Virus record (IMG/VR): IMGVR_UViG_3300048011_000299
Span: 1 to 54,049 of that record
Length of the DNA: 54,049 bases
Reading direction: 5' to 3' (one strand)
Source of the DNA: a virus
Below, one piece after another: positions 2,471-54,049 of the stretch. The stretch's first letter is position 1. Each line of letters starts with the position of its first letter. The notes below the pieces were generated by a model. The model saw only the letters and a list, made by a program, of their open reading frames with translations. It searched no databases and was not told the origin of the DNA. The translations under genes and the position numbers were made by a program.

Positions 2471-5400
2471 CAGGGAAGTTTTTCCTAGTCTCAAAGTTTG
2501 GCATTACACCTAAAGCAGCTTCAGTCATATCTTCACCCACGGCTATAGCTAAACTATTGAGTACTGGGTTACTATAATCTTGCTGGCCGTCTTCTTCTTC
2601 TCTGATACGGATTTGGTATCTACCGTCCAGCCGTGCTACCCGAAGAGCCGCTAAGGAAGCATCTCTGATAGCATCCCTAGATTGTCGCTTCCTAGTTATA
2701 TCTACAAGATTAGCAAATTCTTTAGGGCTTGTAATAATGGTAGCCAAAACCTGTTTGTGGATTTCTTTTTCGAGGGCAATAATTTCCTCTACTCTAGCGG
2801 ATGATAATCTACGCAGCATTGCAGCGGTTGGGTTCATGTAACCGGCTAGTACCAGAATACTGGTTGAGACAGCATCTCTAGTTTCTTCACCTATTCTAGT
2901 AAGTATCTCTGTATTAGAACCTACAGGAACATCCCTGAGCAGGGTTGGACCAGCATTGGCATATAAGACATTAAGAGCGTTGAATACACCTACTCTAACT
3001 GACTCTGTGGCTGCGTCAGCGGCTCCCTCTGGAAAGATGATGTCTAAGCTCTTCATTAAGCCTTTGGCAGAATCGGCGGTAAGCTTAACAATCTGGCTTG
3101 GCTGTATATTACGAAGCGGTGTGCCGTCAGGTTTAAAGCCGGTTATGCTTGATCCAAATACTTTCGAACCGACTGTATCTAAAGCAACAGACTGTAAGGC
3201 TTGTTGAGCAAGAAGACGTTGGCTAGTGGGTAGCTTATCTATCTCAGCCATTAGTTCTATAGTGCCATTGCTATCGGGCTTAGTAATAATATCCGACAGG
3301 GCTGCTCTAGTATCAGTTCTAGCGGCCTTACCTACACCACCCGATCTGCGAGTTACTTTAGATAGAAGATCATTTAGAACAGAGCTTTCTGCGGCCTTCA
3401 GAGCTTGCTTGGCTTGAGTAATGCTCTCTTCAGCACCTAACAAGTCATCTCCTAAATCACGCCGCCTCTGGCCTATGTCTACAACCATCTGCGCTAATCT
3501 GTCTGCACTCTGGTCATTACCGGCTGCGCGTAATTGTTTGATGGCAGGAGCAATTTGCTGATTGAGGTCTATCTCACTCATGCCTTTTGTAGCCAGTACA
3601 GAAAGCTTCTCCATCATCCTAGCCATGATGAGATCACCCATAAGAGGGGTGGTCGGCCCTACGTTACCCATAGATTCATCGATGGCTTCGTATAGCTGCG
3701 TAAAGCCTGACCCGTCAGCCTCATCCATAGCCGTATTGACGTAGGATTCCATTGCACGGTTGGAGTCTACAACACCTTGATCCCTAGAGGTTACTTGAGA
3801 GGGGTCTAGATTACGCTTGGAGCGTTGATCTGATAGTACAGACGTAAGAGCCTTAATCCGGTCATCATTACGCCAGCGATTATCAAAGTCTTTGTATTTC
3901 TGGTCAGCTATTTCTGCAAGTTCTCTGGTCTCTCCCTGAGCGTAGCCTAATTGACCCAGATTACCATCATCTTGCACTTTGGAAGAAATGTGCTTTTTAA
4001 TTTGACTGAATTTCTGAGCTAATTTTGGATTAGTTGCAGAGTAAGTGTCATACATACCGCTAAGAGTGGGCCGTAAGTTATAAACGTCTTGAAAGCCTAT
4101 GGTACTACCAATTCTCTCAAGAAACTCTGCCTTCTTTTCAGGTCTGATAAATATCTCACCACTGGTCTGCATAGTGAAAACACCATCAGGACCATATAAA
4201 AAAGTACGGGTATCCTCAGTAACCATCTTCTTATTAGTAAGTGCGGTGTAGATTTTACCCAAGGCATCTCTGGCTTGATTGCCGCTGGAGTCAAAGACGT
4301 TTACGTTTTGAACTGCGTCCAGAACTTGATCGACTAAAGCTTCCGCAGCCGCAGGTCCAATAGGCGTATTGGGAATTGCTCTAAAGGCAGCTTCTACTCC
4401 ATCTTTCTGAGCTTCAAAGACAGGGTATGCAGTACTTTGAGTCCAATTAGATAATGCCTGACGGTCATCACCGGTAAGCTGCATCTGGGTGAAGTCATCC
4501 ATCAGAAGATCGATGGATTGGTCATCTGCTACTACATTATCGATGTTTGTTTTAATAGCATCCCTAGCAGCTTCAGCCTCAGTAATGTCAGCGCCCAGAG
4601 CATTCTTTTCTACTTCAATTTGCCGTGACAGATTACCTACAGTAGTGTCTGCGGCTTCATCTATATCACCAGCAATGCGGGAGTTAGCAAATTCAGAGAA
4701 GAAGTCTCCCATTTGATTGAGGACGGCATTATCTGTGCCAGCCACATCTGGATTACTTCTATTACTACGCATGATAGAAATCATACGCTGATACATATCT
4801 CCAGAAGCCTGTTGGATCATTTCTTCAAATTCGTCGGCTCCCATAGTATCCTGAAGATGCTGACGGGTTTCTCGCATATAGGCCTCAGAGCCTGTCATCA
4901 GAGCCTGAGCCGTAGGTACTGGGATGTCTTTCTGAAAATCAGCAATCTTCAGTGTGACTACGGCATTACTGTTTAGTACCTTAGAAAGAACTTTTAAATT
5001 CCTTCCTACCTCAAGAGCATTCTTACCCTTCATCATAGTTGGGTCTAGAAACTCAGCTACCTTTAGGACTATGCCGTCTTGTACGGCGGCACTCATCCCA
5101 TCGAGGTCTCTGATAGTTGCCCCTGTAGCGTATTTACCTTTGCGAGTAATAAAATTAAACAAGGGAGTTGCTACTGTAAGCAAGCCATCCATAGCACCGT
5201 TAAGAATTAGACCGTCTGCTAATACAGCTAAATCATTGGCAGTTTCATCTGTTATATCTGCACCAGCACTCTCTGCTATACCTTTAATACGATCCGAAGA
5301 TATTACTAAACCAGAATCTCCTTCACTAACGGCCAGTGTTTCTAAAATAGAGCCAGATATTGTATTAGCGGTAACTGTACCAACGCCACCTAATTTTGCA

Positions 5401-43472: not shown

Positions 43473-43759
43473 TGGCTAAAGAAGAAGTATTCAGCAAGTT
43501 TATATGGTCTATTGGTGGTTTGACTGAGGTTATTGGTCAAATGCACTGTAGCACCACCAATGAAGCTACGGCGCTGCACTGGCACGACGATGAGAATTAC
43601 TGGTTCACGTTAGAAATGCGGGAAGACGGTGTCTACGCAGAGATAGATGACAGTACGGATGCAAAGACTATGTACGCTGCTATCGGTTACTGCCAGTATC
43701 ATGGCATCTCCTACAGTCTTATTTGGCAAGACTACAGAAAGGAGAAGTCTAATGGCTAA
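43472..43759 (+). CDS. Hypothetical protein (95 aa)
   Basis: MAKEEVFSKFIWSIGGLTEV, then HWHDDENYWFTLEMREDGVY and DDSTDAKTMYAAIGYCQYHG. Trp/Tyr/His-rich and compact; no family recognised. It overlaps the integrase start by 8 bp, so integrase translation may be coupled to it. Confidence 0.62.
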   Translation: MAKEEVFSKFIWSIGGLTEVIGQMHCSTTNEATALHWHDDENYWFTLEMREDGVYAEIDDSTDAKTMYAAIGYCQYHGISYSLIWQDYRKEKSNG

Positions 43760-44888
43760 AGCTCCTTACGTGCGGCCGCGAGAGGTAGGTAATGGTTGGG
43801 TGTACGACATCAGGCCTACCGCTGAAGTTCTAGAGGCTTTTCCGCATCTGAATGTTAAACCACGGGAGAACTACACCTGTATAAGAGATGCCAATGCCCG
43901 TGGCTATGAAATCAAGCGTCTGTTCGAGGCTCACAAAGCCGGTGAAGAGGTAGAGGTCAGGGCAGACAGCCGCTCTGTCGCTGCGCTGGTGGACTACTAC
44001 AAAGACAGCATGGCTTATACAAACATCAAGGCCGCTTCTACCAAGCGGTCCTACGATGGTCATCTCAGTCATGTGCTGCGTGTACACATAGGCGGCAAAC
44101 AGTTTAGCAAGATGTTTGTGTCACAGGTTGACTACGAATACGCACAAAGATTGTGGCTACACATACAGTCTGACGTATCTACACACAAAGCAAACCACAC
44201 ATTCAAGGTGCTGAAGCTGGTCTGGAACGAGGGTTTACGTGCGGGGAAAGTTAAATCTAACCCGTTCTCCTTAGTCAGGATACCCAAGCTACCGGACAGG
44301 CAGGTTATGTGGACCGTCGATCAGATCAAGGGAATGGTGAAGTACTGTGATGAGCAGGGCTATCCAAGCATGGGTACTATGATCGTCATGTGTTATGAGT
44401 TCTGCCAGCGTCCGGTGGATGTACGCACTATGAAGTGGTCTAACATAGATGGGCGTACTGGGGTGTCGAATTTCATCCAGCAAAAGACCGGCAAGCAGAT
44501 GTCCATAAAGGTAACCAACGCCGTTCAGGACAGGTTACATCTACATCAGCACCGTAACTCAGACGATTACATCTTCGCATACGAAAATACTGGGCGTCCA
44601 TACACGCAGGATCGCTGTAATAAGTTCTTTCGTAAGCTGGCTGACGGTTACGGGCTACCTGAAGTGCCTATACACGGTCAGTTCAATAAAGATGGCAGTC
44701 AGATGTATTCTACCATCTGGTTAGCTGACTTACGACGAACTGGGATAACCCATGCCAGTCAGTCTGGCTGCTCAGACAGAGAGCTAATGGCTCTATCAGG
44801 CCACAAGAACCCTCAGATGCTGGTTGTATACGCAGTAGAGGGCGAGATTGAATCTACCAACGCTAATATAAAACGAGGACTATTATAA
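43752..44888 (+). CDS. int: Tyrosine-family site-specific integrase
   Basis: A 378-aa integrase. Catalytic residues seen: R220 (CQRPVDV), K245 (QQKTGK), R328/R329 in ADLRRTGIT, H351 (LSGHKNP) and Y360 (VVYAVE). The usual His before L-R is replaced (ADLR), as in several phage integrases. The N-terminal 180 residues comprise an arm-binding part and a core-binding SAM-like domain. The start is ATG 43752, overlapping the upstream gene. It would recombine the attP at 46222-46264 with a host tRNA gene. No excisionase was identified. Confidence 0.93.
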   Translation: MAKAPYVRPREVGNGWVYDIRPTAEVLEAFPHLNVKPRENYTCIRDANARGYEIKRLFEAHKAGEEVEVRADSRSVAALVDYYKDSMAYTNIKAASTKRSYDGHLSHVLRVHIGGKQFSKMFVSQVDYEYAQRLWLHIQSDVSTHKANHTFKVLKLVWNEGLRAGKVKSNPFSLVRIPKLPDRQVMWTVDQIKGMVKYCDEQGYPSMGTMIVMCYEFCQRPVDVRTMKWSNIDGRTGVSNFIQQKTGKQMSIKVTNAVQDRLHLHQHRNSDDYIFAYENTGRPYTQDRCNKFFRKLADGYGLPEVPIHGQFNKDGSQMYSTIWLADLRRTGITHASQSGCSDRELMALSGHKNPQMLVVYAVEGEIESTNANIKRGLL

Positions 44889-45632
44889 ATGGATCACGAA
44901 CAAATTACTGTTCAGTATGTACGGCACTCAGGTGATGATCTCTCAGTCGTAGATGCGGCTAGAGTGAGCTATGACTCTAAGAGTGAGGCTCTGGGATACT
45001 CTGGTAAAGAGAGTGGCCCTATAGTGCCTGAGTTACACGACAGAGATAAGAAGCTCATCCGGTATCTGGCTGATCATAAGCACTACTCACCATTTAACCA
45101 TGCCTTCGTCACTTTCAGGTGTACCGCACCGTTGTTCTCTATGGCTCAACTCAAGAAGAGCGAGTACATGCCTTGGAATGAGATAAGCCGCCGTTACGTG
45201 GACAGTGAGCCTGAGTTCTACTGGCCGAATGAATGGAGAGGCCGTCCTCGAAAGGGTAACTCTAAGCAGGGCAGCGAGGGCCACATCACTATCTCCGACG
45301 ATATCATAGAGGATTCCTATGATGGTGCTATGCTCAGTTACCGGACGCTACTGGAAGTAGGTGTAGCTCCAGAGATGGCTCGCATGGTTCTGCCGCAGTC
45401 TATGTTATCGTCTTGGATATGGAGTGGTAGTCTAAAAGCCATCAGTAAGATGTGCAGCCTACGGTGTGCCTCTGACACGCAGTATGAGAGCCGTGTAGTA
45501 GCCAATCAAATCAGCGACATAATGCGAGGGCTGTTCCCAGTTAGCTGGGCTGCGCTGATGGGAGAGGCTTACCCGTACATACGTCCAATGAGCGACGATG
45601 AGAGGCAGCGAGCTAAGGAGAAGGCGGCGTGA
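44889..45632 (+). CDS. thyX: Flavin-dependent thymidylate synthase
   Basis: A 247-aa ThyX making dTMP with FAD and methylene-tetrahydrofolate. Visible are the family's KHYSPFNHAFVTFRC region (residues 64-78), then the signature, here degenerate: K90-S91-E92 where RHR is usual, followed seven residues later by S100-x-R102 (NEISRRYV). The C-terminal ASDTQYESRVVANQI matches the family's end. It starts one base after the integrase stop, so it is co-transcribed, and it supports the dNTP-supply theme. Confidence 0.9.
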   Translation: MDHEQITVQYVRHSGDDLSVVDAARVSYDSKSEALGYSGKESGPIVPELHDRDKKLIRYLADHKHYSPFNHAFVTFRCTAPLFSMAQLKKSEYMPWNEISRRYVDSEPEFYWPNEWRGRPRKGNSKQGSEGHITISDDIIEDSYDGAMLSYRTLLEVGVAPEMARMVLPQSMLSSWIWSGSLKAISKMCSLRCASDTQYESRVVANQISDIMRGLFPVSWAALMGEAYPYIRPMSDDERQRAKEKAA

Positions 45633-46134: not shown

Positions 46135-46178
46135 GTGGCAAAAATGGCAGACTGCCACTCTGTAATCTGCCATGCCAC
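46135..46178 (+). repeat. Stem-loop near attP
   Basis: GTGGCA ... TGGCAGA ... TCTGCCA TGCCAC: arms pair over 13 bases with a bulge of four A on one side. It follows the stop of the 47-aa gene by six bases. No T run follows, so termination is doubtful; it may be a recombination accessory site or an RNA processing signal. Confidence 0.5.
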
Positions 46179-46192
46179 TTTACCCATGTCAG

Positions 46193-46312
46193 AGGCATTT
46201 TATTGTTTAATATCAGTAATTTGGCTCCGGCGGTAGGGATCGAACCTACGACCAATTGATTAACCGTACCCATTGATTTCATTGGATAATTCGGGATACC
46301 TACAAAATGCCT
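46193..46312. repeat. Inverted AGGCATTTT repeats flanking attP
   Basis: AGGCATTTT at 46193-46201 and its complement AAAATGCCT at 46304-46312, bracketing the tRNA-derived core (46222-46264). The placement suggests integrase arm-type binding sites. Confidence 0.5.
46222..46264 (-). other. attP: attP core: 3' half of tRNA-Asn(GUU)
   Basis: Read on the minus strand these 43 bases are exactly tRNA positions 34-76: anticodon GTT (46262-46264), 3' anticodon stem, five-base variable loop, T arm GTAGG-TTCGATC-CCTAC, acceptor strand CGCCGGA, discriminator G73 and CCA. The upstream sequence (5' half) does not match a tRNA, so this is a partial copy that would complete a host gene after integration. The integrase gene is 1.3 kb away. 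Confidence 0.88.
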
Positions 46313-46350
46313 GTTAACACTAATTGTTTTTATATGCGCCTAATTAAGTG

Positions 46351-46442: not shown

Positions 46443-47210
46443 ATGACCTACCTCGAACAACTAGAAGTCATAAAGGCTATCCCTATACGGGAAGGAGACA
46501 CTAAAGTAATCCAGTGTCCTTTCTGTGGTGGCTTAAAGAAGCTGTCTGTTTCTAAAGTAGACGGCCAACTGAAGTGGTATTGCTTTAGAGCAAGCTGTAA
46601 TGGCAAAGGCATATACCAAGGCAAGAGAAGTCTACAGGCAGCTAAGAATTATCTAGCAGATGCTGTACAGCAAAAGACTAGAGAGCCGAAGCCTATTCCT
46701 TCGATCACTACTCCAGCCCGTAATCACCAGCCAGCACTCGACTATCTAGATCAGAACAATAGCCTAGAGGCTTACGAAGCTGGATACATAGATGTTCGCT
46801 ATGCACCCGCAGAGGATAGAGTACTATTCTGCACAGACACAGGCGCTGTAGGTAGATCACTAAAGAAGTATGGACCTAAGTGGCTTTCTTACGGAGTGCT
46901 GGAAGAGGGCATACACGTAGGAAATGGATCAACAGCCGTGCTTGTAGAGGATACACCATCAGCCTGTTCTGTAAGCAGAGTAGACGGCTTAGTAGGCGTT
47001 GCTTTGCTGGGAACTCGCGTAAGTAGCTGTCTTAAAAAGTCTCTGAACAAATACGATGCTTGCTATTTGGTCCTTGACAAGGATGCTTCGTCTAAGTCTA
47101 TAAAGATAGGTAGGAGTATAGATAAAAGCTTACTGATTAGGTTTACTTCTGAAGATTTAAAGAACCTATCAGTTAACCAGCTTGTAGAGGTGTTAAGTAA
47201 TGAATTGTAA
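46443..47210 (+). CDS. DNA primase (zinc finger plus TOPRIM-like domain, 255 aa)
   Basis: N-terminal zinc finger with Cys at 25, 28, 47 and 52 (CPFCGG ... WYCFRASC), the type that reads the DNA template. Residues about 100-220 carry the TOPRIM pattern: VLVEDTPSACS (glutamate region) and YLVLDKDASSKS (D-x-D-like). Unlike T7 gp4 it has no helicase domain; the helicase is a separate gene 600 bp away. The short size (255 aa) fits a primase-only protein. Confidence 0.82.
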   Translation: MTYLEQLEVIKAIPIREGDTKVIQCPFCGGLKKLSVSKVDGQLKWYCFRASCNGKGIYQGKRSLQAAKNYLADAVQQKTREPKPIPSITTPARNHQPALDYLDQNNSLEAYEAGYIDVRYAPAEDRVLFCTDTGAVGRSLKKYGPKWLSYGVLEEGIHVGNGSTAVLVEDTPSACSVSRVDGLVGVALLGTRVSSCLKKSLNKYDACYLVLDKDASSKSIKIGRSIDKSLLIRFTSEDLKNLSVNQLVEVLSNEL

Positions 47211-49040: not shown

Positions 49041-49176
49041 TGATCTGCCGCCGCACCTTGCGCTGCTTCTGGAAGAAGTTGGCGTAATTAACCCCAAACC
49101 TGAGCCGCAGCCTGTAGTGCGTGACCTCTCATTTAAACGTCCCGAGTTGGATGAGAATGGGGAGCCACCGTGGTGA
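49030..49176 (+). CDS. Hypothetical protein (48 aa)
   Basis: MKCDDLPPHLALLLEEVGVI then NPKPEPQPVVRDLSFKRPEL; Pro-rich. Overlaps the helicase end by 11 bp and the polymerase start by 7 bp. Supported by continuous coding and by the GGGGAG site for the polymerase inside it; unrecognised. Confidence 0.55.
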   Translation: MKCDDLPPHLALLLEEVGVINPKPEPQPVVRDLSFKRPELDENGEPPW

Positions 49177-51332
49177 AATGGCTTGTATTGGATTTAGAGA
49201 CAACGGTTCAGCGAATAGATGGCCGAATAGATAACAGCCCTAAAAACCCTGACAACAGGTGTGTGTCTGCTCACTACGGCTGGCTTGGGTTGGAGACTGT
49301 AGATGAGGTTCACACAGACCTGTGGCATCACAAAGAACTACACTCTCCTGATGGGATAGACCGCCTGAAGCAGCACCTCGCTGAAGCAGACGGCATGATA
49401 TGCCACAACGTGAAGTTCGATGCTGAGTGGCTTCTGGAGATGGGCTTTGAATTGCCGCCTATCGTCAGAGACACGATGATAACAGAGTACCTGTTAGCCA
49501 AAGGACAGCGTAGGCTGCTTAGTCTGAAGGAGAGCGCTCTACGGCGTAAGACTGAGAGCTTAAAGAAGTCTGACCTAGTCGATGAGCTATTTAAAGGCGG
49601 CACATGCTTTTCTGAGATGCCGTTGGATGTAGTAGTCGAGTATGCAGAGGCTGACGTTAAGGCCTGTGGTGAGTTGTATATAGCCCAGCAAGACATCTTA
49701 GCCCGTGAGCATAATCTCAGCCTGAAGAAGGTCATTCCCTTTATGAATGAGATGCTGTTGTTTCTCTGCGAGATAGAGATGAACGGGGTCAAGATCGATA
49801 GGGATGCTCTGGCAGAGGTTGAGGCACAGTTTACCGAAGAGAAGGCCGCTCTAGAGATAGACCTGAAGCGTATTGTCGAACAGGTGATGGGTGACACGCC
49901 TATTAATCTAAATTCTGGTGATGATATGACCAGAGTGATCTACTCGCGGGAAGTCATCGACAAGGCCATACACAAGCAGACGTTTAATATAGGAACCAAT
50001 GAAGCCGGTAAGTCACTAAGACCACCTTTTGAGTTCATCAAGTATCCTAATAAGTTTGTGGACGCAGTACGGACCACAACCAGAGTTGTTATGAAGCAGT
50101 CTGCCTCGCAGTGTCCTGACTGTGGCGGCTCCGGTACTATCCAGAAGTACAAGGTCAAAACTAAGACTAAGTTAGGTAAGAAGTATCGTGTGCAGGGTGA
50201 GCCTTATAAGAATAGGTCACGGTGTGCTGTCTGTAATGGCGTAGGAGCGATATACACCTCGACAGGCGTAGTTGCTGGCCTAAAGATGGCTCCTAGTACA
50301 GCCTACGATGCCAGCATCGGCGGGTTTAAGTCTGACAAGGTTACTATACAGCGTCTGATTGAACAGGCAGATCGCAAGGATAATTCTACAGCCGTAGAGT
50401 TCCTGACTAAGCTGTCACGACTAAGTGCGGTCTCTGTTTATCTGGATAGCTTTGTGGCTGGTATTAAGAGGGGTACTCGCGCAAGCGGGTTTCTACATGC
50501 CAACTTCAATCAGTGCATTGCTGCTACGGGTAGACTGTCGAGTGGCGGCGGTATGTCATTGAACTTACAGAACCAGCCTAAGAGAGGTTTTCCTGTTCGT
50601 AAGTGCTTTGTCAGTCGGTTCCCAAACGGTTTACTTTTAGAGTCGGACTACTCAGCCCTTGAATTTCGTACCGCGTGTGAGTTGTCGAGAGACAGTCAAG
50701 GCTTGGCAGACGTACTAGAAGGGAAGGACATACACAGGCAGACTGCAAGTATCTGTCTACAGAAGCCGCCTAACGAAGTCAGCAAGGATGAGCGTCAGGG
50801 CCATAAGTGGGCCAGCTTCCAGCCACTTTTTGGCGGCACTGGGGCCGGTCAGCCTGATCATATAAAGGCATACTTCAGCCGTTTCTATGAGATATACGAG
50901 GGTATATACGGCTGGCATCAGTCACTAATGAATGGCACCTTAAAAGATGGCACAGTAACCACACCTAGTGGCCGTCAGTATTTCTGGCCGAATGTCACTA
51001 GAACCAAAGCAGACAGAGTATCAAATGCCACTCAGATACTGAATTATCCAGTCCAAGGCTTCAGCGCAGACTTAGTTCAATTAGCCTGTATAAGAGCATT
51101 TAGACTGTTTAAGGAGAGAAAACTACAATCAAAACTGATACTTACGGTACACGACAGTTTAGTGTGCGATACACATCCTGATGAGGTAGATCAGGTCAGA
51201 GAAGTTCTTACAGAGGCCATGACTAAGGTCAGCGAAGAGTCAAAAGAGCGGTTTGGCTACTCCCTTGTTGTGCCGCTCGACATAGAAATAAGTCGCGGTA
51301 AAAACTGGCTAGATCAGGAAGAATATGTTTGA
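49170..51332 (+). CDS. Family A DNA polymerase with 3'-5' exonuclease and DnaJ-type zinc finger
   Basis: A 720-aa replicative polymerase. Exonuclease motif I is LVLDLETT (D8, E10), motif II-like CHNVKFDAEW, motif III YAEADVKAC (about 160). Two CxxCxGxG-type knuckles (CPDCGGSG 315-322, CAVCNGVG 352-359) form an inserted zinc finger like half of DnaJ. Polymerase motif A is DYSALEFR (D493). The O helix is R542...K546...F550...F554, so the Pol I site 762 is Phe and Y766 is Phe. Motif C is TVHDSLV (D662). GTG 49170, or GTG 49173 with the GTGA overlap, is the start. Confidence 0.93.
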   Translation: MVKWLVLDLETTVQRIDGRIDNSPKNPDNRCVSAHYGWLGLETVDEVHTDLWHHKELHSPDGIDRLKQHLAEADGMICHNVKFDAEWLLEMGFELPPIVRDTMITEYLLAKGQRRLLSLKESALRRKTESLKKSDLVDELFKGGTCFSEMPLDVVVEYAEADVKACGELYIAQQDILAREHNLSLKKVIPFMNEMLLFLCEIEMNGVKIDRDALAEVEAQFTEEKAALEIDLKRIVEQVMGDTPINLNSGDDMTRVIYSREVIDKAIHKQTFNIGTNEAGKSLRPPFEFIKYPNKFVDAVRTTTRVVMKQSASQCPDCGGSGTIQKYKVKTKTKLGKKYRVQGEPYKNRSRCAVCNGVGAIYTSTGVVAGLKMAPSTAYDASIGGFKSDKVTIQRLIEQADRKDNSTAVEFLTKLSRLSAVSVYLDSFVAGIKRGTRASGFLHANFNQCIAATGRLSSGGGMSLNLQNQPKRGFPVRKCFVSRFPNGLLLESDYSALEFRTACELSRDSQGLADVLEGKDIHRQTASICLQKPPNEVSKDERQGHKWASFQPLFGGTGAGQPDHIKAYFSRFYEIYEGIYGWHQSLMNGTLKDGTVTTPSGRQYFWPNVTRTKADRVSNATQILNYPVQGFSADLVQLACIRAFRLFKERKLQSKLILTVHDSLVCDTHPDEVDQVREVLTEAMTKVSEESKERFGYSLVVPLDIEISRGKNWLDQEEYV

Positions 51333-53928: not shown

Positions 53929-54049
53929 TCACTCAGGAAGATATCGACGCAGTGGCTGAACTAGCAGAGCCATTATCACAAGCTGGCTTACATAATATGC
54001 CAGATGACTGGGATAAACATAGGCATCCCTCGCCTCTGGAAATGGTATC
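53925..54049 (+). CDS. MazG-like nucleotide pyrophosphohydrolase (5' part; continues at base 1)
   Basis: Begins MITQEDIDAVAELAEPLSQA and runs to HRHPSPLEMV at the contig end. The last 29 bases equal bases 1-29 but for one base, and the frame is kept across the join. ATGA overlap with DUF3310 and a GAGGAG site 10 bases upstream support the start. Part of one gene with 1-390. Confidence 0.88.
   Translation, partial: MITQEDIDAVAELAEPLSQAGLHNMPDDWDKHRHPSPLEMV
54021..54049 (+). repeat. Terminal repeat: copy of bases 1-29
   Basis: Bases 54021-54049 match 1-29 with one difference (C at 27, A at 54047), a synonymous change in a Val codon. The overlap shows the map is circular or circularly permuted, as after assembly of a genome with no fixed linear end in the contig. 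The mismatch may be a population variant or a sequencing end error. Confidence 0.9.

Follow-up and report, generated by a model that had tools for sequence, protein, structure and literature searches.

A 43-base tRNA-Asn 3' half as the likely attP core of an HMO-2011-type phage of Roseobacter-group bacteria

The window, meaning the whole stretch of 54,049 bp that was analysed, is an entire IMG/VR virus record. The match to gp18 of Roseobacter phage CRP-738 spans its end-to-start junction, and positions 1-30 and 54020-54049 form a 28-base near-repeat at both ends with one mismatch, which is consistent with an overlap from circular assembly. The genome is therefore circular and complete. Its size lies within the range of about 53-55 kb of HMO-2011-type phages. 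The family A DNA polymerase carries two CXXCXGXG motifs, at residues 315 and 352; a partial DnaJ domain with two such motifs in this enzyme is the reported mark of the HMO-2011 type (PMC9038755, PMC6918029). All best polymerase matches were HMO-2011-type phages, and the core genes of the type, for helicase, primase, DNA polymerase, portal, capsid, TerS and TerL, all had counterparts in CRP-738 with unchanged order. By these sequence characters the window phage is a member of the HMO-2011 type, and the likeness suggested from the polymerase in the sequence-only reading was borne out. A 10-kb contig (IMGVR_UViG_2823602183_000216) encodes replication proteins 93-99% identical to those of the window; its dataset number differs from those of metagenomes, and it could be linked to a host if it came from a single cell or a genome bin.

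The closest annotated phage was CRP-738 (MZ892992, HMO-2011-type), whose host is Rhodobacteraceae FZCC0089. It shared 40 of the 55 genes tested at 25% identity or more, with identities of 73% for the integrase, 76% for the DNA polymerase and 88% for TerL. Unlike in the window, thyX is not annotated in CRP-738. The features of the window that surround the site studied here are listed in Table 1.

Table 1. Features at and around the putative attP of the window
Feature	Position	Strand	Basis or remark
Tyrosine integrase, 378 aa	43752..44888	+	Probable start M36 of the 413-aa ORF 43647-44888
ThyX-type thymidylate synthase	44889..45632	+	Between integrase and putative attP
Five-box array TGGCA-AAAA-TGGCA-GAC-TGCCA-N10-TGCCA-TGCCA	46136..46177	+	IMG/VR scan, fixed spacing
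Putative attP core, nt 34-76 of tRNA-Asn(GUU), 3' half only	46222..46264	-	Host tRNA match
Conserved GTTAACAGG box	46310..46318	-	Begins 59 bases 5' of tRNA nt 39
DNA primase	46443..47210	+	First gene of replication block; adjoins attP in relatives
HMO-2011-type family A DNA polymerase	49170..51332	+	Two CXXCXGXG motifs

The integrase was identified by Pfam Phage_integrase and PHROG 1. Its start is probably at 43752 rather than at 43647, because relatives start there. Of the catalytic set R-K-H-R-H/W-Y, the residues R, K, R, H and Y are present, and the first H is replaced by Ala. At this position all relatives, CRP-3 included, lack His; the residues seen there are Ala, Ser, Asn, Arg or Met.

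The reverse complement of the core interval is GTTAATCAATTGGTCGTAGGTTCGATCCCTACCGCCGGAGCCA, a sequence with a single occurrence in the window. It begins with the anticodon GTT, A37 and A38, positions 39-43 (TCAAT) and the variable region TGGTC, and continues with the T-arm GTAGG-TTCGATC-CCTAC, the acceptor strand CGCCGGA, G73 and an encoded CCA, with normal length in every arm. The earlier assignment of these 43 bases to tRNA positions 34-76 was thus correct in arms, ends and coordinates, as was the distance of 1.3 kb to the integrase (1,333 bp to the end of the gene). Identity with the host tRNA ends at position 33, where the phage has G and the host T; A31 and C32 agree as well, giving 45 of 46 bases between phage and host. 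Neither a complete tRNA (ARAGORN), an Rfam match nor a tRNA 5' half was detected in the window, in agreement with the absence of the 5' half claimed at the outset; a complete functional tRNA, which would have spoken against the attP reading, was likewise missing. An exact 43-base match arising by chance in 54 kb has negligible probability.

Bacterial genomes contain the exact 43-mer in at least 119 stretches. Among the matches listed, about 105 form the end of a complete tRNA-Asn with the 5' part TCCGGCGTAGCTCAGCGGTAGAGCAGTTGACT, so that the proposed search for an intact host gene with this 3' half succeeded, and the records that carry a genus or family name belong to Rhodobacterales. A SAR116 genome was not found among the exact matches listed. 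A Roseobacter-group member of Rhodobacterales is the most likely host. Displaced tRNA-Asn 3' ends were also seen in Rhodobacterales genomes (loci L015, L016, L019, L020, L050, L055, L056, L063, L070, L073, L092, L098, L100, L106 and L110), several of them in the genome of strain SB2, to which L056 belongs. About 14 such loci, with unrelated flanks, were set aside as belonging to other elements; the displaced ends probably mark other elements, with different flanks, that integrated at tRNA-Asn.

The conservation of the fragment was analyzed in 23 IMG/VR loci gathered by integrase similarity alone. All 23 contained the tRNA-Asn 3' end (39-43 of the 43 bases) antisense and downstream of int. Further loci gathered with the 43-mer itself are biased and were left out of this count. 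In each of the 23 the fragment sits in the corresponding position, between the integrase and the DNA primase. The 3' fragment including CCA was kept exactly while integrases ranged from 40 to 97% identity and flanks diverged, in a set fetched partly with the 43-mer, which does not apply to the 23 loci. The match to the tRNA starts at about nt 32-34 in the window phage and most relatives. A subclade of six loci (L243, L246, L249, L250, L251 and L255) has ACCAC in the anticodon loop instead of GTTAA; its match to tRNA-Asn is confined to nt 39-76, yet array and integrase are kept. The block common to all relatives corresponds to 46222-46259 of the window, nt 39-76.

In the integrase tree, the phages with tRNA-Asn formed one clade (support 99/98), adjoined by CRP-3, CRP-235 and CRP-212. 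When 87 distinct Rhodobacterales tRNAs were compared by BLAST with the phage genomes of relatives, tRNA-Met(CAT) 3' ends were detected in these three phages at the corresponding position, including a 38-nt end at 3171-3208 of CRP-3. Integration of CRP-3 at the tRNA-Met(CAT) gene has been demonstrated by experiment (Zhang et al. 2019, PMC6918029), and its recovery serves as a positive control for both method and position. CRP-3 (MK613345), CRP-235 and CRP-212 resemble the window in having attP between int/thyX and the primase in equal orientation; they differ in the target, tRNA-Met instead of tRNA-Asn, in an integrase only about 30% identical, and in that the TGGCA array was not recognised. 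No convincing tRNA fragment was found with Rhodobacterales tRNAs, SAR116 tRNAs left aside, in the subgroup I phages HMO-2011, CRP-1, -2, -207, -345 and -603.

The same comparison bears on whether the fragment could belong to a tRNA, functional or split, or to a regulatory RNA that mimics one, and not be a recombination site. The T-arm, the 3' acceptor strand and CCA are complete, as such a role would have it. However, the window holds no 5' half, ARAGORN and Rfam were negative, and the sister phages have a tRNA-Met 3' half in that place, so that the identity of the fragment follows the integrase and not a tRNA function. This explanation is extremely improbable.

Sequence variants of the fragment were matched to host genes. 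CRP-738, like the window, has the tRNA-Asn 3' end and the five-box array in the corresponding position, but its T-stem reads GTTGG...CCAAC. This form, shared with two further lineages, is a compensated T-stem change from GTAGG...CCTAC, and its distribution on the integrase tree needs at least two changes. In CRP-738, 45 nt are exact to a variant tRNA-Asn with GTTGG...CCAAC, an allele present in 1 of 199 Rhodobacteraceae genomes. A third allele (GGTTCGACCCCTACCGTCGGAGCCA) occurred in six array-bearing loci; among 296 Rhodobacterales genomes, one has it within a complete tRNA-Asn. Since the phage alleles match rare but real host genes, the tRNA copy of the phage appears, on sequence grounds, to follow host alleles. 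The attP of CRP-738 is annotated neither in MZ892992 nor under that word in the main text of the paper.

Two conserved elements flank the fragment. The boxes of the array begin at 46136, 46145, 46153, 46168 and 46173, and 44 bp separate the array from the CCA end of the core. IMG/VR scans with the array alone returned 38 stretches, and those with its TCGCA version returned 8. Every array-bearing stretch has a tRNA-Asn 3' end 42-45 bp from the array, with a spacer of differing sequence. In some phages all five boxes read TCGCA/TGCGA, changed together from TGGCA. This concerted change at a constant distance from the core can be followed from the array of the window to loci L133, L245 and L207. 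On the other side, 16 of 23 distinct attP contexts have the GTTAACAG box at exactly -59 from nt 39, and the remaining contexts have degenerate copies in that position. Direct or inverted repeats shared between the two flanks of the core showed nothing consistent, and a sigma-70 promoter scan of the attP region found none.

Alternatively, the array could lie outside attP and serve the adjacent operons as a transcription terminator, as an operator or as an element of a replication origin. In some relatives it folds into a hairpin with a T-run behind it, and it stands directly after the int-thyX operon and ahead of the primase gene. A terminator or an operator would not require a steady distance of 42-45 bp to the core across an unconserved spacer, and the joint switch of all five boxes includes the one in the hairpin loop. 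We regard this explanation, which concerns the array only and is the main alternative to an arm-site role, as rather unlikely. The array and the GTTAACAG box most likely serve, judging from their phasing, as arm sites bound by the integrase, an excision factor or both, and the functional site probably extends beyond the 43-mer, to about 46136-46318. It is an evenly balanced question whether the attP architecture is fixed (GTTAACAG box, tRNA 3' half, array at 42-45 bp) while all five boxes have switched together between TGGCA and TCGCA, and the core between host alleles, with the integrase remaining closely related. If true, nature would have provided in these phages a series of integrases whose specificity for arm sites and core sites has changed. 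Among integrase residues, only positions 47 and 91 switched with box type, in two lineages, which is too weak to claim an association.

Taken together, the conserved position, the host allele matches, the recovery of the CRP-3 site and the phased boxes strongly support the attP proposed in the sequence-only reading. With a probability of roughly 0.9, the 43-mer would be the attP core in an HMO-2011-type phage that integrates into Roseobacter-group Rhodobacterales. Against this count the Ala in the catalytic set of the integrase, the shorter tRNA match of the L243 subclade and the empty searches described below. The integrase, encoded 1.3 kb away, would recombine the core with its identical counterpart, the 3' half of the tRNA-Asn(GUU) gene in the host. 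The host 5' half would then be joined to the phage-borne 3' half, leaving the tRNA gene intact, and the displaced 3' fragment would mark the other end of the prophage. Insertion would thus probably occur in the tRNA-Asn gene without breaking it. The expected attL is the tRNA-Asn 5' half, the core, 42-45 bp and TNGCANNGCA. In the L243 subclade and CRP-3 the tRNA match starts only at nt 39. Because CRP-3 integrates and yet shares only nt 39-76, the crossover is most likely situated 3' of the anticodon loop, and the window copy can probably do without its anticodon bases; a crossover within the loop is disfavoured by both CRP-3 and the L243 subclade.

Integrated copies were searched for in several ways. 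Neither a related integrase (E<=1e-15) nor a related DNA polymerase (E<=1e-40) was detected in 397 sampled Rhodobacteraceae genomes; the polymerase search recovered six related phage records as a control. In IMG/VR, no attL hybrid was found by exact flank or array, and attR searches gave only phage-internal sites, as were the checked loci with the left box plus core. Six-frame proteins of the window had no match in 8-kb genome loci around tRNA-Asn. The proposed check of prophage boundaries thus yielded no attL or attR in these genomes and IMG/VR contigs. A repressor or excisionase was not recognised with PHROGs among the proteins scanned, most small genes being without a match.

These empty searches would agree with a fragment that is out of use, either a phage-borne tRNA gene in decay or the scar left by an earlier integration, as would the single mismatch, G33, directly 5' of the anticodon. 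Decay does not account for the exact retention of the fragment through to CCA across 40-97% identical integrases with diverging flanks, for alternative alleles that are real host genes with compensated stem changes, or for the fixed spacing of the flanking boxes. A relic of this kind is therefore very improbable, and we retain the reading of the fragment as an attP core. The missing integrated copies are weak evidence against lysogeny, because likely hosts are sparsely sampled. What the sequences show directly is the match, its conserved place and spacing, the corresponding host alleles and an integrase clade specific for tRNA-Asn. From the attP, the integrase and the CRP-3 precedent we infer a temperate lifestyle; recombination at the core and the role of the boxes are deductions as well. 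Of the temperate HMO-2011-like phage suggested earlier, the attP part stood, and the temperate part is only deduced, as prophage, attL/attR hybrid and repressor were not found in these searches.

The surprise first expressed at lysogeny in the HMO-2011 type was misplaced. Integrases have been reported for the majority of phages in subgroups I and III (Qin et al. 2022, PMC9038755), and integration is already established for the group through CRP-3 (PMC6918029); what is added here is a new target site. For HTVC019P-type pelagiphages and other marine phages with tRNA attP, the relation of att, int and tRNA has been used to infer host and integration (PMC3861242); these differ from the window in phage group and target tRNA. 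Within the main texts of the openly searchable literature, the tRNA-Asn target and its conservation across one integrase clade are new, as are host-allele tracking and the phased box array.

For a marine phage group that is abundant and mostly uncultured, these results point to a host and an integration site that can be tested. One HMO-2011-type lineage consistently has tRNA-Asn as its target and a sister lineage tRNA-Met. The phased array offers a concrete starting point for studying how attP may be recognised by these integrases. The findings also sharpen a puzzle, in that the integration machinery is conserved and integrated copies are not seen.
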